Of a DNA stretch of 48,887 bases, positions 3,638-22,771 are shown in pieces. Within the stretch, counting starts at the first letter, position 1; the number at the start of each line of letters is the position of its first letter. The notes below the pieces were generated by a model. The model was given only the letters and a program-made list of their open reading frames with translations, was not told the origin of the DNA and searched no databases. The position numbers and the translations under genes are program-made. The stretch is from Nanobdellota archaeon (GTDB taxonomy: Archaea; Nanobdellota; Nanobdellia; Pacearchaeales; GW2011-AR1): the NCBI GenBank assembly GCA_018830525.1, contig JAHJSH010000029.1, positions 169,697 through 218,583 on the forward strand, in the 5' to 3' direction.

Positions 3638-3675
3638 TAAGAAACATATATAAATGAGTTTTTTCTTAATTGACT

Positions 3676-4203
3676 ATGGGAATTACAGGGATGGTTACAA
3701 CTGTTACTGATGTGTTAAATATCTGGAACGATATTGGGGTGTTTTCTTATGTGATTCCGTTTCTTTTGATATTTGCAGTTATTTTTGCTATATTGGATAA
3801 AACCAAAATCCTAGGAGATAATAAGACTATTGAGTCTATTGTGGCTGCGGCTATTGGTTTGCTTTCTTTACAATTTGATTTTGTTTCGGAGTTCTTTGCA
3901 GTTATTTTCCCTCGGTTTGGGATTGGAATTTCAATATTTATTGTACTTCTAATTATGTTGGGTTTCTTCTATGGTGATGGTGAGTTGAAGAAAGGAAAGG
4001 TTGCTTGGATTGGTTGGACTGTGGGGATAGGAGTTGTTCTTTGGTCGCTTAGTGCTTGGGATCAATGGTCTGGAAATTCTGGCTTTGGTGGTTTCTTTGT
4101 CGAGAACATATGGTCGATTATAGTTCTGGCAGTCTTAGTTACAATAATTATTGTTACAGCTAAATCTGGGAAGAAGTCTGGTTCTTTGGGTCCGGTAAAG
4201 TAA
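3676..4203 (+). CDS. Multi-TM membrane protein, paralog 2 of 3
   Basis: SYVIPFLLIFAVIFAILDKTKILGDNKTIESIVAAAIGLL; ATG at 3676 preferred to the TTG at 3670. Confidence 0.7.
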   Translation: MGITGMVTTVTDVLNIWNDIGVFSYVIPFLLIFAVIFAILDKTKILGDNKTIESIVAAAIGLLSLQFDFVSEFFAVIFPRFGIGISIFIVLLIMLGFFYGDGELKKGKVAWIGWTVGIGVVLWSLSAWDQWSGNSGFGGFFVENIWSIIVLAVLVTIIIVTAKSGKKSGSLGPVK

Positions 4204-4683
4204 ATGGTAGCAGAAGCATCTGTTTCAGTGGTTGGATATTTTATGCCTATCTTTGCATTTTTATTAGTCTTTATTGTAATCTATGCCCTTTTGTTTAAGA
4301 CGAAAGTTCTAGGAGAAAATCAACCTGTCATGCTCTTTATCTCCTTCATCTTGTCTAGCTTTTTTATTGTTCAGGCTTCATTAGTTGAGTTTGTTAAATT
4401 TACTTCGGCTTGGTTTAGTGTAGTTATTATTGGAGTTTTCTTTTTGATTGCATTGCTCGGATTTTTGCCCGGGAAAGAGCCCCTTTCATTTTTAGGTAAG
4501 AATAATTGGTTTTCTTGGGTTCTCTTGGGATTAATTGTGGCCTTCTTTGTAATCTCTTCGGCTTATGTTTTCAATTGGGCACTTAATTGGGGGATGGTTC
4601 AGGAATGGTTTGATACTGGTTGGTTTGGAATGATTCTTCTCCTTGCTGTTGCCGCAGTTGTTTCTTGGAAGATTAAGAAGTAA
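4204..4683 (+). CDS. Multi-TM membrane protein, paralog 3 of 3
   Basis: YFMPIFAFLLVFIVIYALLFKTKVLGENQPVMLFISFIL; directly abuts paralog 2. Confidence 0.7.
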   Translation: MVAEASVSVVGYFMPIFAFLLVFIVIYALLFKTKVLGENQPVMLFISFILSSFFIVQASLVEFVKFTSAWFSVVIIGVFFLIALLGFLPGKEPLSFLGKNNWFSWVLLGLIVAFFVISSAYVFNWALNWGMVQEWFDTGWFGMILLLAVAAVVSWKIKK

Positions 4684-4797: not shown

Positions 4798-5583
4798 TTA
4801 TTTAGCTAACTTTCTTAACTCATTAAAATTATCAACTAGCGGGTTCATTAATTTTGAAACGGTTCCGTGAAGATTGTTTAGGTCTTTGTGAATCATCGCG
4901 TTGCTTTCTCCGAATTCTCCAATTTTTCCGATGATTGCTTGTTGGAGTTTGTCTATCGAATTTTCAATTCTCTTTAATCTATCATCGATGTCATCAACCT
5001 TTTCTTGGATTGCATTTTTGAATGAAACTAAGTCTCCAGTTTTTTCTTTGAACTCATTTAGTTTTTCTATGACAACTTGTTCGGCAATTTCTGAAATTGT
5101 TTCGGTATCTATTCCCCCTTGTGGTGCGTAATAATCTTGGTCTGAATATGCTTGCGGAGTTTCAGGGTAGTAGTAATCTTGGCCTCCGTCTTGGGGAGGA
5201 TATGCTTGTTGTCCATCTTGCGGAGGATAAATTTCTGGACCGGGAGCCATTGGAGGTTGCATCTGTTGTGCTTGTGGTGGGCCCTGGGGGGCTTCCTCTT
5301 CAAGTCCTGTGCTCATCATTGATTGTTGCATTCCTGCCTGGTTTGATAGACCCCTCCGTGCTTGCATCTGTGGGGCTTGGGCTGGGGGTTGTATCGGAGG
5401 GGCTTGTGTTAAATGTTTTCCCATCCCGGGGGCGGGTGAAGAAACTGCAGCCTTAACTCTTGCTTGATTTAACGAGTCATTAATATCTCTGAGGGGAACA
5501 CCTTCGTTCTGTAATCTTGTAGAAATTTCTCCATCATCCATCCCCTCTCTTTGTAGTCCCATTATCTTTTCTAATACATCCAT
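4798..5583 (-). CDS. Protein with Pro/Gln/Tyr-rich linker and C-terminal coiled coil
   Basis: PQMQARRGLSNQAG...YPPQDGQQAYPPQDGG then heptad-like IAEQVVIEKLNEFKEKTGDLVSFKNAIQEKVDDIDDRLKRIENSIDKLQQ; possible pilus/archaellum accessory. Confidence 0.65.
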   Translation of the reverse strand: MDVLEKIMGLQREGMDDGEISTRLQNEGVPLRDINDSLNQARVKAAVSSPAPGMGKHLTQAPPIQPPAQAPQMQARRGLSNQAGMQQSMMSTGLEEEAPQGPPQAQQMQPPMAPGPEIYPPQDGQQAYPPQDGGQDYYYPETPQAYSDQDYYAPQGGIDTETISEIAEQVVIEKLNEFKEKTGDLVSFKNAIQEKVDDIDDRLKRIENSIDKLQQAIIGKIGEFGESNAMIHKDLNNLHGTVSKLMNPLVDNFNELRKLAK

Positions 5584-5638: not shown

Positions 5639-6058
5639 TTAAGGTTTCAACTTTCCTTTATTTAGTTGAACTTCATTCATACCTTCTTTCTTAGATAGTT
5701 TTGCATCTATTAATTCTTCAACATCCTTTCTCCTCATAAATTCTAATGGTTGGAAATCTTTTAACATTCGCTCAATTATAACTACTTCATCTCTTTTTAC
5801 AAACTTATTGACTTCAGAAAGGAGGTTATTTGAAATTCTTTTTATTTTTTCTAAGTCTTTTTTTATCTCCAAGTTTTCTTTTTTTATCTCCTTTAATTCG
5901 TCTTCTAGTTCTTGTCTTGATGAAATTAAATTTTTTCCCAGAAGTAAAACTCTTTCCCTGATTAATCTATTTCTTTCATCGATGTCTCTAAGTCTAGTGT
6001 TGAAGTCTGCTAAAAGAAATTGAACTTGATCACCTTGTGGAGTTGGAGCCTCTGCCAT
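5639..6058 (-). CDS. Coiled-coil protein
   Basis: QELEDELKEIKKENLEIKKDLEKIKRISNNLLSEVNKF; same strand and adjacent to the preceding coiled-coil gene. Confidence 0.6.
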   Translation of the reverse strand: MAEAPTPQGDQVQFLLADFNTRLRDIDERNRLIRERVLLLGKNLISSRQELEDELKEIKKENLEIKKDLEKIKRISNNLLSEVNKFVKRDEVVIIERMLKDFQPLEFMRRKDVEELIDAKLSKKEGMNEVQLNKGKLKP

Positions 6059-6517: not shown

Positions 6518-9500
6518 ATGATGTTTAAACCGGGCGCGCCATTGTATTCTTATGAGATTATTCGGGAATCTGGGGAGAATGTTATGTACATTAATTATCT
6601 TGGTGCGAACTTTACTCCTTCCTTGATTGAATCCCCAATTGTGATGGCTAGGACGCTTGATAACCTTAAGGAAGATTCAAATATTAGTCGAATTGTTTTT
6701 GTCCAACAGAGAAATTATTCCCATGACTTTACACAGGTGAAAATGTTGATTGAAGTTTCCAACCTTTTTGATTTTTTAATTAATCGGGAACGAATCGTTT
6801 CTCCTGAAAAATTATCTCATCTGGGCAAGGATTATTATGTTGCTTATGCTTTTTTGAATCATATTCTTAATGAGGTTTTGAAACAAGATCCGATTTTGGC
6901 TTATAGGGAATTAAGGAGCGCGATTTTTGAACAGAAAGCTTTGTTGGGGGAGGGGGGAGATAATGAAGACTATATTCGGGTTTTGGAAAAGGTTGAAGGT
7001 TATTTTGAAGATTTATTATTGGTTAAAAAGTTGAAGCCTTCTTTTGATTCTTATTCTTCCGGAGATAGGGATATTTATTCAGAGGTTTTTAGGGCGGATG
7101 CGATGCCGAATTTTACCTTTACTCGAATGGTTGCGCGAATCCCTGACGATGCTGAAATTATCAAACAGTATGAAATAGCGGAAGGGCCGGATAAAAGTTT
7201 GGTTACTATTTTTGAGCGTCCGAATAAAGCGAAGCTTGTCTATCACTTGTCACCTCCGGAATATAGTCTTAATGAGGATCATCATATGTTGTTGAATCTT
7301 GCACGGCAGGTTTTAATTGAGCATCGGCCGTCCGAGGAAGAATTTAATGATCCGGAGCGGACTCGGCAGGTTTTTCTTAATGTTGCTAGGGATTTGCTTT
7401 CAGATTTGGCGCAGAGTAAGAATCTTAGTTTGAATTACATGGAGTTGGGGAAGTTGGCGAATATTCTTGTGAGACATACGATTGGTTTTGGAATTTTAGA
7501 AGTTTTGCTTCAGGATGAGAATTTACAGGATATTGTTATTAACGCTCCGGTTAGTTTAAGTCCGGTTTTTGTAAGGCATAATGAGTTTGATGAGTGTGTT
7601 ACTAATTTGATTCCTTCTCAAGAGGATGCGGATTCTTGGGCGGCAAAGTTTAGGATGATTTCGGGTCGGGCGCTTGATGAGGCGAATCCGATTTTGGATA
7701 CTAATTTGGAATTGAAAAATGCGAGTGCTAGAGTTGCAATTATCCAGCAGCCACTTTCTGCAGGAGGAATTGCTTATGCTTTGAGGCGACATCGTAGCAA
7801 ACCGTGGACTTTGCCTTTATTTATTAAAAATAAAATGATAGATAGTTTAGGTGCGGGACTTTTGAGTTTTATGGTTGATGGGGCTCGAACGATGTTGGTT
7901 GCTGGGACAAGAAGTTCAGGTAAATGTGTTGATGGGGATACATTGATTCAATTAAGTGATGGAGGAATAAAAAAGATTAGAGATTTGGTTGGAGAGAAGA
8001 AGAAAGATATAGAAGATGGAGAGATATTTAGTCCAAAAGAGAAATTTGGGGTTAAGTCTTTAGAAGGAATGAAAATTAGTGAGAAGGAAATAAGTGATGT
8101 ATGGAAGAGGATTTCTCCTGAAAAGGTTATTCAAATAAGAACAAGAAGTGGAAAGCAGATTATTACTACAAAAGAACATCCTTATTTTATTTATGAGGGG
8201 GGTATAAAAAATAAGAGGGCAGATTCTCTTGAAAAAGGTAATTTGATTGTTAGCCCGCGAAATTTGAAATTTGATTTAGATGAACAGAAAATTAATTTAA
8301 AAGATAATAACTATTTAGTGAATGAGGGGGGGGTAAGTTATGTTCTGAAAGGCGGAACTAATTCTCAAGAAGTTTTATTTCCAAAAACAGTAACTAAAGA
8401 ATTAGCTGAAATTATTGGAATGATAATCGGTGATGGGCATTTGGATGAATGTAAATTAGAATTTCATAATCAGTCTATTGAATTAAGAGAGAGGTATATT
8501 AAATTGTTAAAGATGTTTGGGGTGAAATATAGAATTTTTGATTCTCATACTACAACTGTTGTGCAAGTAACTTCTAGAATGTTAAATAGGTTATTGAGAG
8601 ATGTTTTTGAAATTCCTTTTGGGAAAAAGTCTGATAAGGTTGTTATCCCTCAAATAATACTAAAATCTAATAATAATGTTTTGGCAAGATTTTTAAGAGG
8701 GTATTTTGATTGTGATGGTTATGTTCCAAAAGACAAAAGAGACTTGGAGATTGTTAGTGCAAGTAAAATGATGGGGGAGCACTTGAAGCTGGCACTTTTG
8801 CGGTTTGGCATTACACCTTTTTTGAAGATTAAGAAAATTAATGGAGAAAATTATTATAGAATATTGATTAGAGGAAGTTTTGTTAATGATTATGCTAAGA
8901 ATATTGGTTTTTTTCATCCATTTAAAAAAAATAGATTAGAGCAAATTAGTTGTAGGGATTTTATTGAAAATTCTAATACTGATGTAATTCCTGAAGGTAA
9001 TGAGATAATTAAAAAGTTAAGAAAAGAATTAAGGGTTTGTCCACAGGATGTTAGAATTGTTACTGGAAAAGATTATTGGGCTTATGAAAATGATAAATAT
9101 AGGGTTACAAGGAGTTGGTTTAGAAAACTTGTTTATTTTTACAAAAACAGGTTTGATAATTTGAAGACTATGGGGGAGGATATTGTGAAGTTAAAGAATT
9201 TTGTTAATTTCAATTATACTGATTATTTGGAAAACATCAATAAGTTGAGGAGTTTACTCGGAGTTTCTTATTCTTTCTTGGCAGGAGAATTGGGTATGTC
9301 TGAGGCAGGCATAAGAAAAATTTTGAAAAATAAGAAAATTAGCAATTATGGGGTTTTAATTAAAACTTTTGGTTTGTTTAGATTTTTGAAAGAAAGGTAT
9401 GATGCAGTTTTTGGGTTAAAAGGAAATGGTTTGAGGGTTGATTGTATCCCTGAATTAGTTAAAGAAGGGGTTGTTAGTTATGCAGAAATAGGGAGGGAGT

Positions 9501-12415
9501 GCAATATTCCAGAGAGTAGTTTGAAATATTATTGCTGTGGTAATTCTGTCCCTGTTGAAAGAAAAGAGGTAATTGAAAGATGTTTAATTGGATTAAAGAT
9601 TAAAATGTTATTTAGTCTTGAGAAGTCGTTTGATTTAATAGATAATATTTCTATTATTAGTGAGTCTATTAATTTTGGTATGATTTTAGCTAATATGAGA
9701 AATGAACTTGGCATATCTAATGAAGAATTTGCTAAGCATGGAATTTCTGTTGGAAGCGTAACGAACTTTTTTTGTGGGCATTCTAAACCAAGCATAGAGA
9801 CTCTTAAGGCGATGGTTGGTTGTATTATGGGGGTTTATGAGTCTTGTGTTAATGATGGGAACTTTGAATTAATTAAGGAAGCAGATAAATTGGCAAGTTC
9901 AGATATTTATTGGGATGAGATTTTGAGTGTTGAGGAGATAGATAAGGTTGATGATTATGTTTATGATTTAACTGTCCCAGAGGCGCATAATTTTGTTGCA
10001 AATGGGATTGTTGCTCACAATACATCTTTGCTTGGAAGTTTGTTGTTGGAGATTATGCCGAACCATAGAGTTATTACTATCGAAGACAGTGTTACAAAAG
10101 ATGCATTGATGGTTGTAAGGCGAAATGGTCTTTATGAGAAGATAAGTATTGGAAATTTGATTGATGAACAGGTAAGTAAATATGGGTTTATTGATTTGGA
10201 TGGTAGAGAGAAGTCTTTTAATTTAGAAGGTATAGAAGTTTTTTCTTTTAATAAAGATGGTAGAATTGTCTTATCTAAGCCAAGTAAGTTTATTCGACAT
10301 AAAAATACTAAAGATATTTATGAAGTAGAGACTGCTTCTGGAAAAATTATTAATGTTACTAAAGACCATTCACTTTTTTCTTTAGATGTGGATAATTTAA
10401 TTAAACCCATAAAGCCCATTAATTTAAGGGAAGATAATTTTATTGCTATTCCTAGAAAACTTAATTTTGGCAATAAGAGAGACTTTATAGACATCTTGCC
10501 ATTTTTGGGAGATATTGAAAAAAAGATTTATGTTTTGGGGGCTCCGATTAATAATTATTTTGATGGGAAAAGAAAAGAGTTGTTCGATTTTTGTTCTAAA
10601 TTAAATTATAAAAAAGCGACTATTCAGTCTTGGACTAGAAATAAAGTTTTGCCTTATGAGGTATATAATAAATTAAGGGAACAGATTGGCGAAGGAGATT
10701 TTTTTATTAAAAGTTTTTCTTCATCTAAAATTATTCCGACTAAGATAATGTTAGATGAGGATTTTTTAAACTTTTTAGGTTTATGGCTTGCAGATGGTTG
10801 TTATGGTAAGAATTCTGTTTTGATTTCTGTTCAGGAAGAGGAGAATCGTGAAGTGGTTTGTAGAGTTGCTAAGAAATTGGGCATGAATGTTAAGGTTCAT
10901 AGTGACGAGTTTACTTTTATGTTGAATTCGGGGTTATTTCGAGAGGTGATGGAAAGAGTATTGCTTTTTTCAGGAAATTCTTATACCAAGAAAATTCCTA
11001 ATTGGATTTATGGGCTTTCAAATAAACAGGTTGGGTGGATGTTAAGAGGATTTTATAGTGGGGATGGGTGTGCAATAGATAAAGAGATTGTTTTTTCAAG
11101 TTGCTCTAAAGATTTAATAAAAGATATTTCTACATTGCTTTTGAGGTTTGGGATTATTCTTCGATATTCTAGTGTTAAGAGAAAAGATAAGTGTACTAAT
11201 TGTCGGATTGGGGACGGCGAGATGATTAAACTTTATAAGAAGAATATTGGGTTTTTGGTCGATAAGAAAAGGGAGAGGTTGGATAAATTATGTTCTAGAA
11301 AATCAAATCATGATACTTCTGATATAATCCCCTTGAGCTTAGAGGTTAAAAATAAATTATCTAAAGAAATTGGTGGTGATTTTAATTTTTATGATTATGT
11401 TACTCGGAATAATAATTTGGGGATAAGAAAGTTAAGATCTTTTGTTGATATTTTAAAAGGGGGTGATTTGAAGGAAAAATTAACTCGTCTTGTTGGTTGT
11501 GATATTTATTGGGATAAAGTTAAGAGTGTTAGGAAGATTAACTATAAAGGTTATGTTTATGATATTTCTGTTCCAGGGGATGAAAATTTTATTTGTGAAA
11601 ATATTTTGGCACATAACACTTTAGAATTGCCAGTTTCAGCGATGAGAAAATTGGATTATGATATTTTGTCGATGAAAGTTCGTTCGGCTTTGGCTGGGGA
11701 ATCTACAGAGGTTGCGGCAGAGGAAGGAATCCGAGCTTCGCTTCGTCTTGGAGATTCGTCTTTGATTGTTGGGGAAATTCGTTCGGCAGAAGCTAAGGCT
11801 TTGTATGAAGCGATGAGGGTTGGTGCTTTAGCGAATGTTGTTGCAGGTACGATTCATGGAGGCTCTCCGTATTCGGTTTTTGATAGGGTTGTTAATGATC
11901 TTGGTGTTCCGGTTACTTCTTTTAAGGCAACAGATTTGATTGTTGTCGCGAATCCAATTAAGTCTCCTGATGGTTTGCATTCTTGGAGAAGGGTTTTGCA
12001 AATTACGGAGGTTCGAAAGCATTGGACTAAAGATCCTTTGACGGAGGGAGGTTTTGTTGATTTGATGAAGTATGATGTGGAAGAAGATATATTAAAACCT
12101 TCGGAGGATTTGATTAATGGGGATTCGGAGATTATCAAGGATATTGCGTCGAATGTTAAGGGTTGGGCAGGGAATTGGGACGCGGTTTGGGATAATATAA
12201 TTCTTCGTCAGAAGATTAAACAAGAAGTAGTTGATTTTGCAGAGAAAATGAAACAACCAGAGTTATTAGAAGCAGAATTTACTGTGAAATCGAATAATGC
12301 GTTTCATCAGATTAGCGACGAGGTTAGCGAGGAAATTGGTTTGCCGACAAGTGAAGTCGTTTTTCCTAAGTGGAAAAGATGGTTGGAGAAAGAGAGTAAA
12401 CGTGTAGGTTTATAA
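6518..12415 (+). CDS. Type II/IV secretion-family ATPase (TadA/ArlI-like) containing two inteins
   Basis: Exteins: VAGTRSSGK|TSLLGSLLLEIMPNHRVITIED|TLELPVSAMRKLDYDILSMKVRSALAGEST...GEIRSAEAKALYEAMRVG...AGTIHGGSPYSVFDRVV; 756 aa without inteins. Confidence 0.93.
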   Translation: MMFKPGAPLYSYEIIRESGENVMYINYLGANFTPSLIESPIVMARTLDNLKEDSNISRIVFVQQRNYSHDFTQVKMLIEVSNLFDFLINRERIVSPEKLSHLGKDYYVAYAFLNHILNEVLKQDPILAYRELRSAIFEQKALLGEGGDNEDYIRVLEKVEGYFEDLLLVKKLKPSFDSYSSGDRDIYSEVFRADAMPNFTFTRMVARIPDDAEIIKQYEIAEGPDKSLVTIFERPNKAKLVYHLSPPEYSLNEDHHMLLNLARQVLIEHRPSEEEFNDPERTRQVFLNVARDLLSDLAQSKNLSLNYMELGKLANILVRHTIGFGILEVLLQDENLQDIVINAPVSLSPVFVRHNEFDECVTNLIPSQEDADSWAAKFRMISGRALDEANPILDTNLELKNASARVAIIQQPLSAGGIAYALRRHRSKPWTLPLFIKNKMIDSLGAGLLSFMVDGARTMLVAGTRSSGKCVDGDTLIQLSDGGIKKIRDLVGEKKKDIEDGEIFSPKEKFGVKSLEGMKISEKEISDVWKRISPEKVIQIRTRSGKQIITTKEHPYFIYEGGIKNKRADSLEKGNLIVSPRNLKFDLDEQKINLKDNNYLVNEGGVSYVLKGGTNSQEVLFPKTVTKELAEIIGMIIGDGHLDECKLEFHNQSIELRERYIKLLKMFGVKYRIFDSHTTTVVQVTSRMLNRLLRDVFEIPFGKKSDKVVIPQIILKSNNNVLARFLRGYFDCDGYVPKDKRDLEIVSASKMMGEHLKLALLRFGITPFLKIKKINGENYYRILIRGSFVNDYAKNIGFFHPFKKNRLEQISCRDFIENSNTDVIPEGNEIIKKLRKELRVCPQDVRIVTGKDYWAYENDKYRVTRSWFRKLVYFYKNRFDNLKTMGEDIVKLKNFVNFNYTDYLENINKLRSLLGVSYSFLAGELGMSEAGIRKILKNKKISNYGVLIKTFGLFRFLKERYDAVFGLKGNGLRVDCIPELVKEGVVSYAEIGRECNIPESSLKYYCCGNSVPVERKEVIERCLIGLKIKMLFSLEKSFDLIDNISIISESINFGMILANMRNELGISNEEFAKHGISVGSVTNFFCGHSKPSIETLKAMVGCIMGVYESCVNDGNFELIKEADKLASSDIYWDEILSVEEIDKVDDYVYDLTVPEAHNFVANGIVAHNTSLLGSLLLEIMPNHRVITIEDSVTKDALMVVRRNGLYEKISIGNLIDEQVSKYGFIDLDGREKSFNLEGIEVFSFNKDGRIVLSKPSKFIRHKNTKDIYEVETASGKIINVTKDHSLFSLDVDNLIKPIKPINLREDNFIAIPRKLNFGNKRDFIDILPFLGDIEKKIYVLGAPINNYFDGKRKELFDFCSKLNYKKATIQSWTRNKVLPYEVYNKLREQIGEGDFFIKSFSSSKIIPTKIMLDEDFLNFLGLWLADGCYGKNSVLISVQEEENREVVCRVAKKLGMNVKVHSDEFTFMLNSGLFREVMERVLLFSGNSYTKKIPNWIYGLSNKQVGWMLRGFYSGDGCAIDKEIVFSSCSKDLIKDISTLLLRFGIILRYSSVKRKDKCTNCRIGDGEMIKLYKKNIGFLVDKKRERLDKLCSRKSNHDTSDIIPLSLEVKNKLSKEIGGDFNFYDYVTRNNNLGIRKLRSFVDILKGGDLKEKLTRLVGCDIYWDKVKSVRKINYKGYVYDISVPGDENFICENILAHNTLELPVSAMRKLDYDILSMKVRSALAGESTEVAAEEGIRASLRLGDSSLIVGEIRSAEAKALYEAMRVGALANVVAGTIHGGSPYSVFDRVVNDLGVPVTSFKATDLIVVANPIKSPDGLHSWRRVLQITEVRKHWTKDPLTEGGFVDLMKYDVEEDILKPSEDLINGDSEIIKDIASNVKGWAGNWDAVWDNIILRQKIKQEVVDFAEKMKQPELLEAEFTVKSNNAFHQISDEVSEEIGLPTSEVVFPKWKRWLEKESKRVGL
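7925..10021 (+). mobile_element. Intein 1 of the TadA-like ATPase (699 aa), LAGLIDADG type, Walker A insertion
   Basis: Starts CVDGDTLIQLSDG after GSGK-type P-loop; ends VYDLTVPEAHNFVANGIVAHN before T; LAGLIDADG-like IIGMIIGDGHL and FLRGYFDCDGY. Confidence 0.95.
10088..11617 (+). mobile_element. Intein 2 of the TadA-like ATPase (510 aa), LAGLIDADG type
   Basis: Starts SVTKDALMVVRRNG; ends VYDISVPGDENFICENILAHN before T; LAGLIDADG-like FLGLWLADGCY and MLRGFYSGDGC; splits ITIED|TLELP. Confidence 0.93.
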
Positions 12416-12746: not shown

Positions 12747-12749
12747 ATA

Positions 12750-12774
12750 GTAACTAATAGTTACAATAAGTAAC
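12750..12774. promoter_or_regulatory. Operator-like overlapping inverted repeats
   Basis: GTAACTAaTAGTTAC perfect 15-bp palindrome (12750-12764) plus GTTACaataaGTAAC (12760-12774), between TATA-like ATTTAAATA (12741-12749) and ATG 12779. Confidence 0.6.
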
Positions 12775-12778
12775 TCCT

Positions 12779-12940: not shown

Positions 12941-13386
12941 AAGAACTAAAAATAGATATCGCAGATTATTTTCTAATCTTTATAATAATCGGAGGTTTTC
13001 TTCATTTTTTATTCCCTATTAGGCAGATTATTTTCTATCCCCTTACTCTTATTGGACTTTTTCTTTTTTTTATCGGGTGGATTCCAAATGTTTGCATAGG
13101 AATTTATTTTAGAAAAATTGGAACTTCAATTCCATCGCACAAAATGCCTAAAAAATTAATTACTTCGGGGTACTTTAGATTTAGCAGAAATCCCGTTTAT
13201 CTTGGAATTTTTGTATCTTTATTGGGTGAGGCAATATTTTTAGGGTCTATTGTAACATTTATTGTCCCTGTTTTATTTTTTATTCTTGTTAGCATTTTTA
13301 ATGTGCCCTTTGAAGAAAAGAATCTTGAAAAACAGTTTGGAAAGAAATACCAAGATTACAAGAAAAAGGTTAGGAGGTGGATTTAA
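12937..13386 (+). CDS. Isoprenylcysteine carboxyl methyltransferase (ICMT)/PEMT-like membrane methyltransferase
   Basis: LITSGYFRFSRNPVYLGIFVSLLG...FEEKNLEKQFGKKYQDYKKKVRRWI signature. Confidence 0.75.
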   Translation: MKELKIDIADYFLIFIIIGGFLHFLFPIRQIIFYPLTLIGLFLFFIGWIPNVCIGIYFRKIGTSIPSHKMPKKLITSGYFRFSRNPVYLGIFVSLLGEAIFLGSIVTFIVPVLFFILVSIFNVPFEEKNLEKQFGKKYQDYKKKVRRWI

Positions 13387-13391
13387 TCCCC

Positions 13392-15566
13392 ATGGCACCG
13401 AGTACTGAAGACATTTTGAAGAAATATAGGGCGAAGATAGATAGGCAACTGAGTGATTACAATGAGAGTCCGACCCCGCAAGGGAAATTTTCTAAGAGTT
13501 ATGATACGTTTAGAGCTTCTATGATGCCAGAGTTTTCTCGATATGAGCGTTGGTGCAAATCGATTGGGAATTTTTTCACGATGAAACTTGGTGAAAAGGA
13601 TAATGCTCGAATTTCTCGGGCGATTGAAATTGCACATTTGAATGTTACTCCTTCTGAAGTTGTGGTCTTCGCTACGATGTTGATGTTTTTGGTGATGTTT
13701 GGTGGAAGCTTGATTATTACTGCGGTTTGGTTTCTTGGGGGAGGACTTAGTATCGGATTATTGTTCTTGCTGTTTCTACTTTCTGTCTTTTTGTTTTTCT
13801 ATGCTTCAAAGACTCCAGAACGACTTGCGGTGAAGTGGCGTCTTAAGGCGTCGTCGCAAATGGTCCCGGCGATTTTGTATATTGTTATTTATATGAAACA
13901 TACTTCGAACTTTGAGAAGGCAGTGGCTTTTGCGGCGGAACATTTAGAACCTCCATTATCTACAGATTTCCGGAAAGTTTTTTGGGACGTCGAGGTTGGG
14001 AAATTTTCTACAATTAAAGATAGTGTTGACAATTATCTTGCGGGATGGAAGGATTATAGTTTGGAATTTGTCGAAGCTTTTCATCTGATTGAATCGAGTT
14101 TGTATGAGCCGGAAGAGACGCGAAGAGTAGCGGTTCTTGAGAAATCTTTACAGGTTATCCTTGACGGTGTTTATGATAAGATGTTGAAATATACTCACGA
14201 GGTGAAGGCGCCTTTGACAAGTGTTTACATGCTTGGGATTATTTTGCCTACACTGGCTTTGGCAATTTTGCCTTTGGCTTCTACGATGATGGGGGGCGCG
14301 ATTCAATGGTATCATGTTATGATCTTGTTTAATTTGATTATCCCGCTTTTGGTTCTTTATTTGACTGGGAATGTTATGATGCAGCGTCCGGGAGGTTATG
14401 GGGAGACGAGTCTTTTGGAGAAGAATCCGCTGTATGCTAAATATAAAAGTAATGCGGCGTATTGGAAAGGTTTCTTTATTGGGTTGCCTTTTATTTTGAT
14501 TGGTCTGATTCCGTTCTTTTGGAGATATACTAATATTCCGCTTTGGTTGAATATGGCGAGAGATTACACTTGGGCAGAGCTTGGTATTGGATTTATGGGG
14601 GGTGGTTATGCTTTTGGGATTGTTGACCCTCTTACCGGGGTGTTGTTTGGTCCTTCGGGTGCTTTATCTTTAATTTTGAGTTTGTTTGTTCCAGTGGGTG
14701 TTGCGATAATATTCATTGTTGCATACCATGATAAAACAAAGGACTTGATTGTTTCTCGTCAGAAATATAAGGAAGTTGAAAATGAATTTACTTCTTCATT
14801 ATTTCAATTGGGTAATCGGCTTGGGGATGGTATTCCTGCAGAGATTGCATTTGCTAAGGTGATGGATTCTACGAAGGGGACGGCTACTGAGGGTTTCTTT
14901 AGGATGGTCAATGAGAATATTCAGCAGTTAGGTATGGGCTTGGAACGGGCGTTGTTTGATCCGCGTCGTGGCGCGGTTATATTTTATCCTTCACAGTTGA
15001 TTGCGACTTCGATGAGAATTTTAATTGAGTCGGTTAAGAAGGGGTTGAAAGTTGCGGCGAGGAGTTTGATGTCTATCTCGGAATATGTTAAGAACATTAA
15101 GAAAATTAATGATCGGTTGAACGATTTGCTTGCGGATATTATTTCTGATATGAAATCTAATATGGTTTTCTTGGCTCCGTTGCTGTCAGGGATTATTGTT
15201 GGTCTTTCTGGGATGATTGCTACGATTCTTGGGGGACTTGCGGGGATGGCCGAATCGGGAGGCTTGGGTGGAGGCGAAGAGATCATAGGGGCTGGAGGAA
15301 TTGGGGGTCTTTTGGGAATTTTCGATCCAGTCACGATGATTCCCACTTATTGGCTTCAGATTGTTGTTGGGATTTATTTGATTCAGATTGTTTTTATTTT
15401 GACATCTACTTTAGTTACGATTAAGTCTGGGCGGGATCAGTTACAGACTACTTCTGAGACTGGGAAGAACTTGAAGAAGACCATAACTCTTTATTTCATC
15501 GTGGCTCTCGTGGCGATTGTTGGATTGACGCTTATTGGGGCGGTTGCTCTAGCGGGTTTGACTTAA
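13392..15566 (+). CDS. Type II secretion F-family / TadC/ArlJ-like pilus assembly membrane protein
   Basis: Duplicated GspF-like topology; IVIYMKHTSNFEKAVAFAAEHLEPPLSTDFRKVFWDVEVG and LFQLGNRLGDGIPAEIAFAKVMDS...; ATG 13392 preferred to GTG 13377. Confidence 0.85.
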   Translation: MAPSTEDILKKYRAKIDRQLSDYNESPTPQGKFSKSYDTFRASMMPEFSRYERWCKSIGNFFTMKLGEKDNARISRAIEIAHLNVTPSEVVVFATMLMFLVMFGGSLIITAVWFLGGGLSIGLLFLLFLLSVFLFFYASKTPERLAVKWRLKASSQMVPAILYIVIYMKHTSNFEKAVAFAAEHLEPPLSTDFRKVFWDVEVGKFSTIKDSVDNYLAGWKDYSLEFVEAFHLIESSLYEPEETRRVAVLEKSLQVILDGVYDKMLKYTHEVKAPLTSVYMLGIILPTLALAILPLASTMMGGAIQWYHVMILFNLIIPLLVLYLTGNVMMQRPGGYGETSLLEKNPLYAKYKSNAAYWKGFFIGLPFILIGLIPFFWRYTNIPLWLNMARDYTWAELGIGFMGGGYAFGIVDPLTGVLFGPSGALSLILSLFVPVGVAIIFIVAYHDKTKDLIVSRQKYKEVENEFTSSLFQLGNRLGDGIPAEIAFAKVMDSTKGTATEGFFRMVNENIQQLGMGLERALFDPRRGAVIFYPSQLIATSMRILIESVKKGLKVAARSLMSISEYVKNIKKINDRLNDLLADIISDMKSNMVFLAPLLSGIIVGLSGMIATILGGLAGMAESGGLGGGEEIIGAGGIGGLLGIFDPVTMIPTYWLQIVVGIYLIQIVFILTSTLVTIKSGRDQLQTTSETGKNLKKTITLYFIVALVAIVGLTLIGAVALAGLT

Positions 15567-15605
15567 TTCGGAAACATTTATAAAGAAAAAGGACTATGAG
15601 ACTGT

Positions 15606-15779
15606 ATGAAGAGGATGAATGAAAAAGGGCAATTGGATTTATTGAATATTATTTTTGGTCTTATTGTGATTTGTGGGGGGATTGTTATTTCTTTTGGGAT
15701 GGTGAATTTGGGAAGTTTGGTTGTGACGATGGGATTGTTGCTGGAGTTATTTAAATTAGTTATTCAGAGGGGTGTGTAG
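15606..15779 (+). CDS. Small pilin-like membrane protein (57 aa)
   Basis: MKRMNEKGQLDLLNIIFGLIVICGGIVISFGMV; TATA-like atttataaa at about 15573; read directly, not in ORF track. Confidence 0.55.
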   Translation: MKRMNEKGQLDLLNIIFGLIVICGGIVISFGMVNLGSLVVTMGLLLELFKLVIQRGV

Positions 15780-15923
15780 ATGGTTGAATCTTCTTTAATT
15801 ATAGGGGCGGCGATTATTGTAATAAATTTGTTACCTATTATTTTTAAGAAGTATAAATTGTTGGTTGTGACAGGAGCGATTTCGGTTTTTCTTGCTATGT
15901 TATTACTGACAGGGGTTGCTTAA
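15780..15923 (+). CDS. Small membrane protein (47 aa)
   Basis: MVESSLIIGAAIIVINLLPIIFKKYKLLVVTGAISVFLAMLLLTGVA; abuts preceding stop codon. Confidence 0.5.
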   Translation: MVESSLIIGAAIIVINLLPIIFKKYKLLVVTGAISVFLAMLLLTGVA

Positions 15924-15924
15924 G

Positions 15925-16407
15925 ATGGAAAATAAGAGGGGTGCTGAGATGACTATTGGTACGATTGTAATTATTGTTTTGGCTATCGCTGTTTTGGTTT
16001 TCTTGATTTTTGGTTTTACGACGGGTTGGTCTAATTTATGGGATAGAATAGGAATTTATGGCGGTTCTGGAGAAAATATTAATGATTTGAAGGTTGCGTG
16101 TGCGGCTGCATGTGCGCAAGGTGATTCTTATGGTTTTAATGATAAAGTTCGGGAAGTGTGGAATGAAGATAAGATGGGTAATAAGGCTGTTACCTGTAAG
16201 GATTTGGTTGGAACTGTAAAACTTACTAATCGTGGAAAAGCAGTTACTGCACCTGTTATGGGGGCTTATGATGCTACTTTAATGGTTCAAGCAGAAATTG
16301 ACGCAGATAAGAAAAAAGTGGATGATGCTTATGCGGTTGCACAAGTTGATTTTGCTAAGGCGACTAAGGATCTTATTGGTGCTGTTGATGATTGTCCTAA
16401 CTTGTAA
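15925..16407 (+). CDS. Pilin-like protein, class III signal
   Basis: MENKRGAEMTIGTIVIIVLAIAVLVFLIFGF: KRG then hydrophobic helix; ATG 15925 preferred. Confidence 0.7.
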   Translation: MENKRGAEMTIGTIVIIVLAIAVLVFLIFGFTTGWSNLWDRIGIYGGSGENINDLKVACAAACAQGDSYGFNDKVREVWNEDKMGNKAVTCKDLVGTVKLTNRGKAVTAPVMGAYDATLMVQAEIDADKKKVDDAYAVAQVDFAKATKDLIGAVDDCPNL

Positions 16408-16458
16408 TTTTTAGTAATCTTTATTAATCTCTAAAGTGTGACTAGTATATGGAAAAGT

Positions 16459-16521
16459 AAGTTCCAAAGGAACTTTCATGTCATTTTCAATGAACAAAAA
16501 TGAAAGTAAGTCTTGCGACTT
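16459..16521. other. Tandem related hairpins in an intra-operon gap
   Basis: AAGTTCC-aaa-GGAACTT (16459-16475) and AAGTC-ttgc-GACTT (16508-16521), both preceded by AAGTA-like sequence. Confidence 0.5.
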
Positions 16522-16553
16522 TCGATTCCATTTTATATGGAGGAAAAATAAAA

Positions 16554-16694
16554 ATGGAAATGGAGGAGATAGTTAAGTTGATTGTCGTTGTTATTGTTTT
16601 GGTTATAATGGTGGGTGCTACAATCTTTTTGTTGAAAGGAAAAGGGGGCGCTCTCTTGGATGGTATTAAGAATCTCTTGAGATTTGGAAGATGA
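16554..16694 (+). CDS. Small membrane protein (46 aa)
   Basis: MEMEEIVKLIVVVIVLVIMVGATIFLLKGKGGALLDGIKNLLRFGR; ggagg about 11 bp upstream. Confidence 0.6.
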   Translation: MEMEEIVKLIVVVIVLVIMVGATIFLLKGKGGALLDGIKNLLRFGR

Positions 16695-18022
16695 ACTCTC
16701 GTGGTGCTATGACGGTTCCGAAGCTGGTTGCGATAATTCTGGCTATTGTCGTCTTGGTTATGTTGGTTTTTGGGGTGACACATCTTAAGCCACTTTATAA
16801 TCGGGTCGGAGATATGTTCGATAGTGTTTTGTATTTCTTTGGAATGGGAGATGATGGCGGAAGAGGGGAATGTAGTAATGATATAAAAGTTTCAAGTTAT
16901 GATGATGGCGGCACTCTCTTAGATATTGTGGGAGTTCCGAAGGATGAACGGGAAAGTGCATTTTTTATTATTTGTGACGATGGGACTTGCGGGGTTGATT
17001 TTTCTTCAGGGGAAGATTATCAGATTAAGGATGGAAGGTTTGAGTCTTCTTGGGATGGAGAGGTTTGGGGTTCTAAGGAGGACTATTTGTTTTGGAGGAA
17101 TGCCAAAGATACAAAAGAAGATTGGGAAGTGTATAATGGTGTTTTGGATTTGATGGAGAAGGAGTTAGAGAAGGGAGAATTTAAGAAGATATACGATGAA
17201 AGGGTTACAAAGTCTTTTTGGTTGTATGGAAATGGGGAGGGGGTGGGCGATGCTTATTATGCTTATTGGGAAAGTGGAGTTTGGTATTTTTATTCTGGAA
17301 GTAATCCTATTGACCGAGAGACCCAACCTATGATGTCTATTGAGCAGGCAATTTCAAAATTTTATGAAGTGGTTGGGAAGGGTAATGATGATGAAGTATA
17401 TTATGTCGAGAAGTTGCCGGTTCTTAAAACGATAGAATATCTGTCTGCGGGCGGGACTCCCGAAAATATATTTGATGAAAACAAGAAGGTGTTGGATAGG
17501 CAATTGAAAAGTGGTGAGATTACTCAAGAGCAATATGATGAAGAAATAAATTCTGGTTGGAAGCCGATTAATTTTTTGATTGGGGGGAAGAATTATGAAT
17601 TAGATAATACTGATGAGCGAGATAGGTTGGCTATTGAAGTTGAGAAAATTGTTAAGCGGTTGGCTGAAGAGGCGAAGATGACTGAAGAAGAAATTTCTAA
17701 CTTGAGGGCTGTTGTGAATGGGGGGGAAGTTCCTGCCGGCGATTTTATTTATACTATGAATTTGGAAATGGCTAAAGGTTATCCGAAAATTGTTCTTACT
17801 AATGGGACAAGAGAATATTATTTAGAGTTTGATAATGATGTTAAGACTTTGCGAGAGAGTCCTGAAGTTCACTTAAGACATTATCCCTTGGAGCTTACAG
17901 ATAATAAACCTAACCAGGCATTTAAACCGAGAGAGATAGACTATAAACTTCCGAAGAATGAATGGGATAAATTTTACAAATTAAATTTAATTGAAGATTT
18001 TATTAGAACAAAATGTCGTTAA
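16691..18022 (+). CDS. Large pilin-like protein
   Basis: MNSRGAMTVPKLVAIILAIVVLVMLVFGV; ATGA overlap with previous gene. Confidence 0.65.
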   Translation: MNSRGAMTVPKLVAIILAIVVLVMLVFGVTHLKPLYNRVGDMFDSVLYFFGMGDDGGRGECSNDIKVSSYDDGGTLLDIVGVPKDERESAFFIICDDGTCGVDFSSGEDYQIKDGRFESSWDGEVWGSKEDYLFWRNAKDTKEDWEVYNGVLDLMEKELEKGEFKKIYDERVTKSFWLYGNGEGVGDAYYAYWESGVWYFYSGSNPIDRETQPMMSIEQAISKFYEVVGKGNDDEVYYVEKLPVLKTIEYLSAGGTPENIFDENKKVLDRQLKSGEITQEQYDEEINSGWKPINFLIGGKNYELDNTDERDRLAIEVEKIVKRLAEEAKMTEEEISNLRAVVNGGEVPAGDFIYTMNLEMAKGYPKIVLTNGTREYYLEFDNDVKTLRESPEVHLRHYPLELTDNKPNQAFKPREIDYKLPKNEWDKFYKLNLIEDFIRTKCR

Positions 18023-18519
18023 ATAAAAGGGCAAATCTTGTAACAGATAATACTGTTGAGTTGATTATCGCGGCGGCGGGGATCGTTGTTTTGATTTTTC
18101 TGTTGATTGCGTTGTATTCTCCGACTTATGATGAGAATGCCGAGACTGCGAAATCTTATCTTCAAATGTTTAATGAGCAAGTTAGTTCTGCGGATTCATT
18201 GGTTGAAGGAAGTTTGACTTTTTGGGGGCCTGAAACTGAGAATGTAAAATTTTATCTTGCTTACTTTGGGGATTTGTCAAGATTTGATAAGGAAATTGAA
18301 AAGGAAAAAGTGATTTTTGTTACGCGTAAGAGAAATGAAAATGCGATTTGTGTTTGTTATGGGAATGCTGAGAAGATGAATTGTAAAAATTGTAAGGAAT
18401 TGGATTTGCCAGTTGAGTTGAAGGTTTCTGGTTATGATAAATTTCCCCCGTGGGTTTTGGATGAAGTTAAGCAATTGAAGATAACTAAAGTTGGGGGCAA
18501 GTATTTGTTCTCGATGTAA
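18013..18519 (+). CDS. Pilin-like protein
   Basis: MSLNKRANLVTDNTVELIIAAAGIVVLIFLLIALY; CxCxGNxxxxxCxxC segment. Confidence 0.65.
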   Translation: MSLNKRANLVTDNTVELIIAAAGIVVLIFLLIALYSPTYDENAETAKSYLQMFNEQVSSADSLVEGSLTFWGPETENVKFYLAYFGDLSRFDKEIEKEKVIFVTRKRNENAICVCYGNAEKMNCKNCKELDLPVELKVSGYDKFPPWVLDEVKQLKITKVGGKYLFSM

Positions 18520-18520
18520 G

Positions 18521-18637
18521 ATGAAGAAGCGGGGACAACTTGTTGGGAAGGAGACGATAAAATGGATAATTTATATTGCGTTGATTATTGCGGTAGGGTT
18601 TTCGATTAGACTGATTTTTAAGAGGGCTAGTGGCTAA
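18521..18637 (+). CDS. Very small pilin-like membrane protein (38 aa)
   Basis: MKKRGQLVGKETIKWIIYIALIIAVGFSIRLIFKRASG; read directly, abuts previous gene. Confidence 0.55.
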   Translation: MKKRGQLVGKETIKWIIYIALIIAVGFSIRLIFKRASG

Positions 18638-18673
18638 GGATAATTTTATTAAGTTAATTTGGTAGTTATTTCT

Positions 18674-19555
18674 ATGAACAAACGCGGAGATTATAAATGG
18701 GATGTTATGATTGCATTGATACTTGGGTTGATTGTTTTGAGCCTTTCGCTTTATTTTATTTTCCAAGAATATTTTAATGAGGATATGATTAGTCAGGAAT
18801 CTTGTCGTCAAAGTGTTATTTTGCGGGGGAATCTCCCTGAAGGAGAAAAGGCAGGGATTACTTATGCGAGTTTTAAGGATGACTTCCCTCTTAAATGTAA
18901 GACTCAGGTCGTTACTATTGATTATGAGGATACGGAGAAGGCGGGAAAACTCATAGCAGATACCTTGGCCCAATGTTGGTATCTTTTTGGAGAGGGGGAG
19001 TTACAGATATTCCCTGCAGATAAATATGGGTTCGAATCATTTTGTACTCCTTGTGCAAGGATTCATTTTTCTCCAGAAGTAAAATCTTTTTACGAGAAAA
19101 ATGAGATAGATGTTTCGGTGGCTCTGGGGAAAGTCTTTCAAGATGCTACTTATAAGACTTATTTGAGTCAGGCATTTCAACCTTCTGTTGGGGTGAATTG
19201 GATGGTTGCGAATAGTGATAAGTCAATAAATGAGTTTAAATTTTCTGGGAATAAGTTTTTGGTTGATGATGCTCAAACCTCCGGAGTGTTAGACAGCATC
19301 CAGAATTATTTTATAGGAGGTTTGGCAGATGTTAATTTGCCTAGGTATATTAATTCCTCCAATGGAGATATGGTTATATTCTTCAGCCAGGTAATTCGTT
19401 CAGATAAGAATGAAGTTTTTGGATATAACCCTCTCCTATTTTATTTTCAGATAGATCAAACTCCTGACCCATTTAAGGAGGTTGATAAGGATTTTATCGA
19501 GGCAGGAGAGTGGAATGCTGCTATGTGTGATCAATTTGATGGGATCCCTGCTTAA
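18674..19555 (+). CDS. Pilin-like protein
   Basis: MNKRGDYKWDVMIALILGLIVLSLSLYFIFQ; ATG 18674 preferred. Confidence 0.65.
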   Translation: MNKRGDYKWDVMIALILGLIVLSLSLYFIFQEYFNEDMISQESCRQSVILRGNLPEGEKAGITYASFKDDFPLKCKTQVVTIDYEDTEKAGKLIADTLAQCWYLFGEGELQIFPADKYGFESFCTPCARIHFSPEVKSFYEKNEIDVSVALGKVFQDATYKTYLSQAFQPSVGVNWMVANSDKSINEFKFSGNKFLVDDAQTSGVLDSIQNYFIGGLADVNLPRYINSSNGDMVIFFSQVIRSDKNEVFGYNPLLFYFQIDQTPDPFKEVDKDFIEAGEWNAAMCDQFDGIPA

Positions 19556-19556
19556 G

Positions 19557-19961
19557 ATGGAAAAAAAAGTTCAATTTCAGAGAAATCTCCTCTATCTTTC
19601 TCATTTGAGAATTCGAAAAAAAGGAGAAGTTTTGAATCAGGTGCTAGTGCATATTGTTTTAGTGGGGCTTATCTTTGCGATTTTTGTTTTTGCTACTGCA
19701 GGGCGGATTAATGGTCGTGATGTGAAGCAACAGGTTTTGGAAAAAGAGCTTGCGCTTTTAATTGATTCGGCGGAGGGGGGGATGGAGTTTGGGATTCAGA
19801 AGGCGATGATTAATGGGAAGATAAATAATGTTGAGATTAAAGAAGGGCGGGTTTATGTGACTGTCGAGGGTTTGGCGGCGACGAAGGGTTATCCGTATTT
19901 TTCTAAGTATTCTGTAAGTGTCCGTGAAGAAGGAAATAAATTTGTGGTGAGTGTGCGATGA
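19557..19961 (+). CDS. Pilin-like protein
   Basis: RIRKKGEVLNQVLVHIVLVGLIFAIFVFATAG: KKG|EVLN prepilin-like site. Confidence 0.65.
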   Translation: MEKKVQFQRNLLYLSHLRIRKKGEVLNQVLVHIVLVGLIFAIFVFATAGRINGRDVKQQVLEKELALLIDSAEGGMEFGIQKAMINGKINNVEIKEGRVYVTVEGLAATKGYPYFSKYSVSVREEGNKFVVSVR

Positions 19962-20437
19962 TAAGTAAAAGGGGGGCGATGGGTGAAGGAGTCTTTATGA
20001 TTTATCGTCTTCTTTTAGTGAGTGTTATTGCGTTTGCGATTTTTGGGATTTCTTCTATTTTTTATGCTTATGAAATTGAGGTTAGAGATTCTGAGGCGGT
20101 TATTTTGACGAGGCAAGTTAGTGAGTGTTTGGCTCCGGAAGGAGTTTTTAATTTAGATTTGATATCTGAAGATTCTCGGAAGAGTATTTTATCTTATTGT
20201 GGATTATCTAATGAAAGATTTTATGTTGGTGTCGAAGTGTTGAATGAGGCTGGAGATGTTATTGCAGAATTTTCTCAAGGAGATTCGGGTTCAGGCTGGG
20301 TTCGGAAACTTACTCAAGGGGCAGGGCAATATGACCCGGGTTATAGGATATTTGAATATCCTGTTTTAATTGGGCAAGGGATAAGTGAGATTGAAGGAAA
20401 GATTAAAATGGAGGTGATTGTGAGCCATGAATTCTAA
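19958..20437 (+). CDS. Pilin-like protein
   Basis: MISKRGAMGEGVFMIYRLLLVSVIAFAIFGISSIFY. Confidence 0.65.
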   Translation: MISKRGAMGEGVFMIYRLLLVSVIAFAIFGISSIFYAYEIEVRDSEAVILTRQVSECLAPEGVFNLDLISEDSRKSILSYCGLSNERFYVGVEVLNEAGDVIAEFSQGDSGSGWVRKLTQGAGQYDPGYRIFEYPVLIGQGISEIEGKIKMEVIVSHEF

Positions 20438-20705
20438 ACGAGGGATTTTGGGGGGGATTATAGCTACTTTTGTTGCGACTGTTGTTATCTTGATAATCCT
20501 CATAATCTTTGTTTTTGCTTCAGGGATTATAAAGAAAGTAGCGGGAGTTGATGAAGGTGTTAGAGTTTTTAATGAGGCTGATGTGGGGATACCAAATATT
20601 TTTAATTATCTTCCAAATTATTTGAGGTTAGCAGAAGTGAAAGTTTCTGCAAGACAAGGAGATTCTATTGAAATGGCGGTTCGGGAGGCGGGATATGTAC
20701 GATAA
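20427..20705 (+). CDS. Pilin-like protein
   Basis: MNSKRGILGGIIATFVATVVILIILIIFVFASGI. Confidence 0.65.
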   Translation: MNSKRGILGGIIATFVATVVILIILIIFVFASGIIKKVAGVDEGVRVFNEADVGIPNIFNYLPNYLRLAEVKVSARQGDSIEMAVREAGYVR

Positions 20706-21309
20706 AAGTAACTTCAGAGAAGTTTCAATTGTTAATCACGGAAATCGGATTAACAAAAGGGCACAATTTTTCTCGATGTATCTTGTATTGCTAACTTTGT
20801 TGATGGTCGGGACAGTGATTGGGTTTTACCATATTCAACAAAAGAATGTTGGAAATTCTTTGGTTTCTCCTAAAGCAGTTTTAGATATTCGGGATGACTT
20901 AGATGTTTTTGAGTTAAGGGAAGTTGAATTAATCAAGAGTTCTTTGAATTCTGCGAGTGGTACTTTTCCAGAGGATGATTTTATAGATTCTTTTAGGGGG
21001 ATTTTTATTTCTGGATTTATGGCAGACGAGTCCATGGAAAATTTTATTTTGAGGGATTTGACTTGGGAAGGAGTGAGTTTCGAAGCGGCTGCTAGAGCGA
21101 ATTTTCAGAACTTTCTTGAAGGGGGACTTTATACTCGAAGTTTAACTATGTCTGAGGATGGAAAATTGATTTTTACTCGAGCGAAGGTAATAAAAAGTTC
21201 TCTTTTGGAGGCTAGTGATAAAAGTAAAGTAAATTTCCCGGTAGATTTTTCTTTTGATTTTGGTCAGGAATATATTATAAATTCTAATTTTGAGGTGACC
21301 AAGAGATAA
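20695..21309 (+). CDS. Pilin-like protein
   Basis: NRINKRAQFFSMYLVLLTLLMVGTVIGFYHI; ATG 20695 preferred. Confidence 0.6.
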   Translation: MYDKSNFREVSIVNHGNRINKRAQFFSMYLVLLTLLMVGTVIGFYHIQQKNVGNSLVSPKAVLDIRDDLDVFELREVELIKSSLNSASGTFPEDDFIDSFRGIFISGFMADESMENFILRDLTWEGVSFEAAARANFQNFLEGGLYTRSLTMSEDGKLIFTRAKVIKSSLLEASDKSKVNFPVDFSFDFGQEYIINSNFEVTKR

Positions 21310-21369
21310 TGGATAAAGTAATCTTAGAAAAGTTTCATGAATCCATTTGTACTTTTTTGGGCTTGTAAA

Positions 21370-21546
21370 ATGGATTACGGTGGGATAGATAAGAGGAGAA
21401 CGAAGAAGGATTTGAAGAGGAAGCGACTTGCTCGGGGATATAAACGGGGAGGGCAGTTTAGAACTCAGAATGTGAATGAAGTTGGGGAAGAGGAAACGGA
21501 CAATAAAAAGGCAAAGAAAATAAAAAAGAAAAATAGGAAGTATTGA
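21370..21546 (+). CDS. Small highly basic protein
   Basis: MDYGGIDKRRTKKDLKRKRLARGYKRGGQFRTQNVNEVGEEETDNKKAKKIKKKNRKY; ATG 21370 preferred. Confidence 0.5.
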   Translation: MDYGGIDKRRTKKDLKRKRLARGYKRGGQFRTQNVNEVGEEETDNKKAKKIKKKNRKY

Positions 21547-21619
21547 GGATGTTCGTCGTAAGGTGTTTGTAGAATTGGGCGTTAGATAGATTTAAATAAA
21601 ATAAACTGATTATAGTGAT

Positions 21620-21724
21620 ATGAAAAAGAGAATGCTTAAAATGTTCCAGATTTTTGTTTGGATAATGGGGGTTGTTGCCGTCGGGTTGCTTGTTTGGGGG
21701 ATTTATAGGGCGCTGTCTACATGA
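21620..21724 (+). CDS. Single-TM small protein (34 aa)
   Basis: MKKRMLKMFQIFVWIMGVVAVGLLVWGIYRALST; TATA-like atttaaata about 25 bp upstream; ATGA overlap with next ORF. Confidence 0.45.
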   Translation: MKKRMLKMFQIFVWIMGVVAVGLLVWGIYRALST

Positions 21725-21903
21725 TGAAAGTTGTTAATGGCTTTGCGGTTTTTTCTCAGGCAATTAATATCTTGCTTTTTATTTATTTTGTAATTGTTTT
21801 ATTAAAATTAAATGCCCTTGATGTTACAGGACTTTTTATAAGTGCTTTTGGAATTTTGACCTCACTTGCTTCTAATATTGTTTCTGTTTTGATGGAAGAT
21901 TAA
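21721..21903 (+). CDS. Two-TM small protein (60 aa)
   Basis: Hydrophobic, operonic with prepilin peptidase. Confidence 0.5.
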   Translation: MMKVVNGFAVFSQAINILLFIYFVIVLLKLNALDVTGLFISAFGILTSLASNIVSVLMED

Positions 21904-21904
21904 G

Positions 21905-22771
21905 ATGGAATTTGGATTTTTGTTTTGGTTGTTTTTTGTAGGAATTGTTGTTGCGAGCTTGCAAGATTTGAAACGGCGAGAAGTTGATAATTGGTTGAAT
22001 TTGTTTTTAATGTTAGCGAGTTTTTCATTTATCTTTTTTAGGTCGATTTTTGAACAAGATGCAACAATTATTTTTCAGGCAGGATTTGCCTTAGTGCTCC
22101 TCTTTATTTTTATGAATGTTTTTTATTATGGAAGGGTTTTCGCGGGGGGTGATGCGAAGTTATTGTTTGCTATGACGGTATTTTTTATTGGCGCGACTTT
22201 TGTAGCTACGTTAGTTAATATTGGAGTCTTTCTTTTGTTCCTAATGTTTGCTGGATCAATTTATGGTTTGATTTATTCGGCGGTTTTGTACGTCCAGAAT
22301 TTTGAAAAAGTTAATAAGAAAATCAAGGAAGGCTTTTCGATATTGTGGGTTCGTTATTTGATTGTTTTAGGAGTTATCTTGTTTGCATTTAGTTATGTAA
22401 ATTGGTGGTATCCTCACTTATTTTTTGGTTTTGGTTGGGGCATGCTATTTTTGTTTTTTGCAATATTCGCTTTGGTGTTGCCGCTGCTTTATGTTTTTGC
22501 TAAGGGTTTGGAAAAAGTTTCAATGATGCGGACGATTTCTGGAAAGGAACTTCGGGAGGGTGATTGGTTGGTTGATGATATAAAAGTTGGGCGAAAAACG
22601 ATTAAGGCCGATTGGGATGGTTTGTCTTTGGAAGATATTAAATTATTGAGGAGCAAAAAGAGGATTAAGATTAAGGAAGGTTTGCCGTTTGTCCCAGCGT
22701 TTCTGATTGCTTTTATATTATATGTTTCTTTTAGAGAATGGTTTATAGAATTGTTAATTAGATTGGCTTAA
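21905..22771 (+). CDS. Archaeal prepilin peptidase (A24 family, ArlK/PibD/EppA-like)
   Basis: Aspartyl motifs LQDLKRREVDNWLN and FAGGDAKLLFAM (GxGD); multi-TM. Confidence 0.9.
   Translation: MEFGFLFWLFFVGIVVASLQDLKRREVDNWLNLFLMLASFSFIFFRSIFEQDATIIFQAGFALVLLFIFMNVFYYGRVFAGGDAKLLFAMTVFFIGATFVATLVNIGVFLLFLMFAGSIYGLIYSAVLYVQNFEKVNKKIKEGFSILWVRYLIVLGVILFAFSYVNWWYPHLFFGFGWGMLFLFFAIFALVLPLLYVFAKGLEKVSMMRTISGKELREGDWLVDDIKVGRKTIKADWDGLSLEDIKLLRSKKRIKIKEGLPFVPAFLIAFILYVSFREWFIELLIRLA

Follow-up and report, generated by a model that had tools for sequence, protein, structure and literature searches.

A prepilin-rich, probable type IV pilus-like locus with a fused platform protein in a Pacearchaeota archaeon

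Relation to described type IV filament systems

In the type IV filament superfamily, a prepilin peptidase trims the leader from each pilin precursor, and an ATPase together with a platform protein polymerises the helices. Among the archaeal type IV pili (Makarova, Koonin and Albers 2016, PMC4858521), the locus described here is most like the clade 1 or Epd pilus of Methanococcus, with which it shares an ATPase, a platform (predicted in our locus), an A24 peptidase and the presence of at least five minor pilins per locus. The Epd platform consists of two proteins, whereas that of our cluster is one fused 730-aa protein, and none of the cluster pilins that were tested matches a known family. The bacterial Tad pilus and its archaeal relatives (PMC6668835) are alike in that the cluster ATPase falls near CpaF/TadA; in contrast to Tad/Epd-like pili, the cluster is without a split TadB/TadC pair, and such a pair is found on a different contig (C22) of the same genome. 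A further parallel exists with the priming complexes of type II secretion systems (T2SS) and type IV pili (GspH-K; PilY1 with minor pilins), in which a conserved, mostly single-copy pilin set also stands beside a variable large pilin, although no link in sequence or fold was found. The literature comparison drew on open-access papers. Within DPANN archaea, a survey of pili reported assembly genes and no pilins (PMC9563170), and the cognate pilins of nanoarchaea were not identifiable (PMC4858521).

The stretch of DNA that we analysed (48,887 nucleotides; hereafter the window) belongs to contig C28; the draft genome comprises 963 kb and is 86% complete. The source organism is a Ca. Pacearchaeota archaeon, tiny and probably host-dependent, and the nearest relatives of the platform protein in the window come from Ca. 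Pacearchaeota metagenome-assembled genomes. From 13377 to 22771, on the plus strand, a 729-aa TadC-like platform is followed by a series of small and medium membrane proteins and then by an A24 prepilin peptidase. We conclude with good confidence that this cluster encodes a Pacearchaeota machine dedicated to assembling a type IV pilus-like structure, separate from the conventional two-platform pilus locus of the same genome. Most likely its product is a dedicated pilus in which several pilins make up the tip or priming complex and a variable slot is taken by an adhesin.

Assembly proteins, candidate pilins and their processing sites

The secretion ATPase (TadA/GspE2-like; 6518..12415, plus strand) matches T2SSE and is interrupted by two inteins, which the sequence places in the P-loop (GTRSSGK/T) and in the IEDT motif; its intein-free orthologues are about 760 aa long. 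In a profile search with these orthologues, the best PDB relatives were GspE2 (8.6e-31), CpaF (6e-27) and FlaI (2e-16), and a comparison with the canonical, second ATPase of the same genome gave an hhalign E of 1.4e-31. The locus has the VirB11/PilT-type secretion ATPase by which membership of the type IV filament superfamily is judged. As gauged by these profiles, the cluster ATPase is a true secretion ATPase and a divergent member of the superfamily, nearest to GspE2 and CpaF rather than to the FlaI of archaella. The platform (13377..15566, plus strand), with about 9 hydrophobic segments, is predicted to be a similarly divergent member of the GspF/TadC type: Pfam T2SSF matched 2 of 12 such platforms (best 1e-4), and hhalign returned E=4e-5 to a TadB-like profile and 0.12 to a TadC-like one. 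The peptidase (21905..22771, plus strand) matches PF01478 above the cut-off (E=5.5e-8) and is a standard A24 member, as the preliminary description of this DNA had proposed for the gene that follows the prepilins; its sequence shows GGDAK and, upstream, an Asp. Between the ATPase and the platform (12429-13386) we also observed a membrane protein of 105 aa and a methyltransferase resembling PEMT, neither of which was matched in the fetched loci.

That description had placed a cluster of prepilins between the platform and the peptidase, and all ten of the class III sites that it quoted were located there, between 15606 and 21309, in genes on the plus strand (slashes below mark the putative cut). 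The candidate major or shaft pilin is p2 (ENKRG/AEMT, 160 aa; 15925..16407), of which the first 35 residues, forming the helix, are 69% identical among near relatives vs 18% for the remainder, or head, where three cysteines are invariant. Of 142 class genomes, 138 contain a match to its family, many of the distant matches spanning little beyond the helix, and p2 is sometimes multicopy. By virtue of this conserved helix, the highly variable head and the occasional presence of several copies, p2 appears to be the likeliest shaft pilin. The 443-aa p3 (NSRG/AMT; 16691..18022) occupies a slot of variable size and is a candidate adhesin; clear orthologues of the window protein were found only near its genus.

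Widely shared among the compared loci are p4 (NKRA/NLV; 18013..18519), with invariant cysteines, and p9 (SKRG/ILGG; 20427..20705), each in 36/41 loci, p6 (NKRG/DYK, 293 aa; 18674..19555) and p8 (SKRG/AMG; 19958..20437), each in 37/41, and p7 (RKKG/EVLN; 19605..19961) in 38/41, the start of p7 being a TTG at 19605 or farther upstream. The remaining prepilin-like genes are more restricted. The 57-aa p1 (NEKG/QLD; 15606..15779) is weakly conserved, and p5 (KKRG/QLV, 38 aa; 18521..18637) was seen, apart from the window, in just two near relatives. The prepilin p10 (NKRA/QFF; 20695..21309) occurs in close relatives, with similar genes in loci L164-L168; its start is uncertain, in that no canonical start codon immediately precedes the site, position 20731 is GTT and the closest ATG that we found in frame (20695) gives a 23-residue leader. 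Adjoining the peptidase is K, a small basic protein rich in Lys/Arg and without a transmembrane (TM) segment (21370..21546, plus strand; 32/41 loci), and a small 2-TM protein (21721..21903, plus strand), matched only in the window, is of uncertain membership.

Several of the aligned pilin heads contain invariant cysteines. AlphaFold models of middling confidence gave p6 an N-terminal helix (residues 9-34) with a mixed head (pLDDT 69, pTM 0.70) and p2 a helix that bears a small head (pLDDT 73, pTM 0.47), so that the N-terminal helix is present in both, and a fold search with these models returned no PDB match for either head. The window pilins had no trusted match in Pfam or NCBIfam; alignments of p2, p8 and p7 likewise hit no trusted Pfam family, and the corresponding profiles gave nothing significant against the PDB.

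Class III motifs are short, and ordinary small membrane proteins with basic N-termini could in principle mimic them by chance. Genes were called and sites scored with our own scripts rather than FlaFind, a site being a basic leader ending in (K/R)(G/A) and followed by a hydrophobic helix. Across the 38 loci in which platform and peptidase are co-directional, such sites occur in 228 of 301 genes (76%) of the platform-peptidase interval vs 13 of 564 (2.3%) elsewhere in the same loci (Fisher p ~1e-124, a value that overstates independence given that the loci are related). By this scoring rule, the class III sites postulated for the cluster do extend to most of its members. The sites are also kept in orthologues over dozens of genera (p4 55/63, p6 58/62, p7 53/55, p8 44/53 and p9 45/50) and adjoin a peptidase, an ATPase and a platform, all of which makes mimicry by chance extremely improbable.

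The ten sites listed in the preliminary description are correct, but its list omitted a 46-aa small subunit, m (16554..16694, plus strand), that is leaderless here but whose orthologues, in most of the family, have a K(K/R)G preceding the helix. A GGAGG lies 10 nt upstream of the ATG at 16554. In the genus of the window the protein begins MEMEEIVK, while in most relatives K(K/R)G-IISEYLPW or a similar sequence is found; with the SEYLPW motif of these relatives, the small helical subunit may resemble the Flp pilins of the Tad pilus. When the helices are aligned, the Met lands at mature position +1, and in several relatives a stop codon immediately upstream rules out a longer leader. A comparable situation is found at the p3 slot, whose occupant in much of the family lacks a leader and starts with M(A/S)ELT; overall, the slot varies between a short leaderless protein and leadered ones that reach about 650 aa. 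We tentatively suggest that these leaderless forms of m and of the p3 slot, with a Met at about the mature start and no cleavage needed, might be naturally pre-processed pilins if they are still assembled, though we consider this rather doubtful. To our knowledge, naturally pre-processed type IV pilins have not been reported. In leaderless m the charges on either side of the helix are reversed, so that an opposite topology and a different role are conceivable as well.

Conservation of the locus and its neighbourhood

Conservation was assessed in 40 loci from relatives and 80 loci retrieved from genome contigs via the platform, the two sets partly overlapping. Of 141 genomes of the family, 137 have the platform, and at the level of the class it was found in 276 of 285. 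The recurrent gene order is ATPase, platform, m, p3 slot, p4, p6, p7, p8, p9, p1 or p10, p2, K and peptidase, with inversions and relocations in some genomes and, in the genus of the window, a p2 copy directly after the platform. In loci from other orders of the class, genes of the same kinds adjoin the platform and recognisable sets recur; p8 is order-wide, with weak matches near the platform in the other orders. Three platform loci (L090, L113 and L148) had no recognisable pilins beside the platform. Judged from these comparisons, the locus is conserved across the whole class of such archaea, and the synteny across DPANN relatives that had been put forward as a check is found, with gene order kept family-wide and sets recognisable beyond. 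The earlier interpretation as a multi-pilin machine is partly supported overall, in that a prepilin cluster with an A24 peptidase and a TadC-type platform is conserved as a unit.

Upstream of the ATPase, similar neighbours also recur. Three mutually related multi-TM membrane proteins lie on the plus strand, namely a (about 4-5 TM; 3149..3637), b (3670..4203) and c (4204..4683), with similar proteins near the ATPase in 69, 69 and 55 fetched loci, respectively; they are tied to the machine by conserved neighbourhood only. Divergent to the ATPase, on the minus strand, are a soluble protein whose charged C-terminus is probably a coiled coil (4798..5583; 78 loci), in which no signal or TM was seen, and a small coiled-coil protein (5639..6058; 81 loci). 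We considered the latter as a relative of FlaC and rejected this, since FlaC_arch matched just 2 of 24 members (E about 0.007) at the chance level of coiled coils. The three multi-TM proteins and the two soluble, apparently coiled-coil ones may be accessory parts. Elsewhere in the window we noted a RadA-like gene, apparently with three inteins (25782-31133), and a 1390-aa Cys-rich protein without a Pfam match, possibly a surface protein (31801-35973).

A second pilus locus and competing readings

The same genome encodes, on contig C22, a conventional, TadA-like ATPase, separate TadB-like and TadC-like platforms and PilA-type pilins. In this locus (L154:1351-12152) the PilA-type pilins, of which there are several, are accompanied by a repeat-containing pilin-type protein of 628 aa; shortly after it lies a HerA-like ATPase with an intein (L154:13240-15663). 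The peptidase of the window is the sole A24 match detected in the genome, and 21 of 22 family genomes have one match each. Although an 86%-complete genome could miss a second peptidase, the recurrence of a count of one across family genomes suggests that a single enzyme serves both pilus systems.

The window also encodes a protein of 888 aa (417-3083) that combines a class III N-terminus of the PilA type with three lectin domains resembling LamG/ConA. We considered it as an adhesin of the machine in the window and rejected this: its N-terminus RGVSAIITAVLIILITIAAIGIIW matches that of the PilA-type pilins on C22 KGISAIVATVLIILITVAAVTIIW, and a similar protein occurs in just one other fetched locus. 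Because of this N-terminal match and this rarity, we assign it to the C22 system, of which it is probably an adhesive pilin. An ARAGORN call of a tRNA-Stop(tta) at 321-412 overlaps the start of this gene and is probably false, as Rfam gives only a Gln tRNA.

The presence of a separate conventional pilus locus and of many distinct conserved pilins would also fit a pseudopilus secretion device, in which a short filament of many minor pilins serves as a piston or anchor for exporting surface proteins and no long pilus is made. T2SS has several minor pseudopilins, which the many pilins of the cluster resemble. Archaea, however, are not expected to have an outer-membrane partner, no cargo gene was recognised beside the cluster, and p2 resembles a surface-exposed pilin that is sometimes multicopy; we regard this device as unlikely, though worth keeping in view. 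DNA import has been proposed for DPANN pili (PMC9563170), and a competence-like pilus could scavenge nucleotides, yet no uptake gene was recognised in the annotated parts of the neighbourhood and this function seems improbable. A fused platform and the coiled-coil proteins adjoining the ATPase might instead recall an archaellum or a derivative of one, but the ATPase matches FlaI far more weakly than GspE2 and CpaF, and the archaellin family PF01917 was matched in 0 of 20 family genomes, so that we give an archaellum very little credence. The preliminary description had stated that its reading would be refuted if the cluster matched an archaellum or pilus operon already described in full; the searches made here brought up no such match and, besides the archaellin result, no Pfam, NCBIfam or PDB relative of the tested pilin families was found.

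We hypothesize that, in the dedicated pilus that we favour, prepilins would enter the membrane and the A24 peptidase would cut off their short basic leaders after G or A, whereupon an ATPase hexamer acting on the fused platform could polymerise the mature helices into a filament. In this filament p2 would be the likeliest shaft subunit, while p4, p6, p7, p8 and p9, with p1 or p10, may form a priming or tip complex as bacterial minor pilins do. The p3 slot would present a binding head, and its variation in size suits a head that is itself variable. The product could be a surface filament, whether short or long, that serves in attachment; a partner cell is a plausible target and a reasonable guess, and adhesion to a host is a plausible candidate role. 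The reduced genome of this archaeon holds two pilus loci with one detected peptidase between them. More generally, the locus supplies a set of candidate pilins for a DPANN machine of class-wide occurrence that was missed by Pfam and NCBIfam profiles, and with such a set in hand a role in episymbiosis becomes testable.
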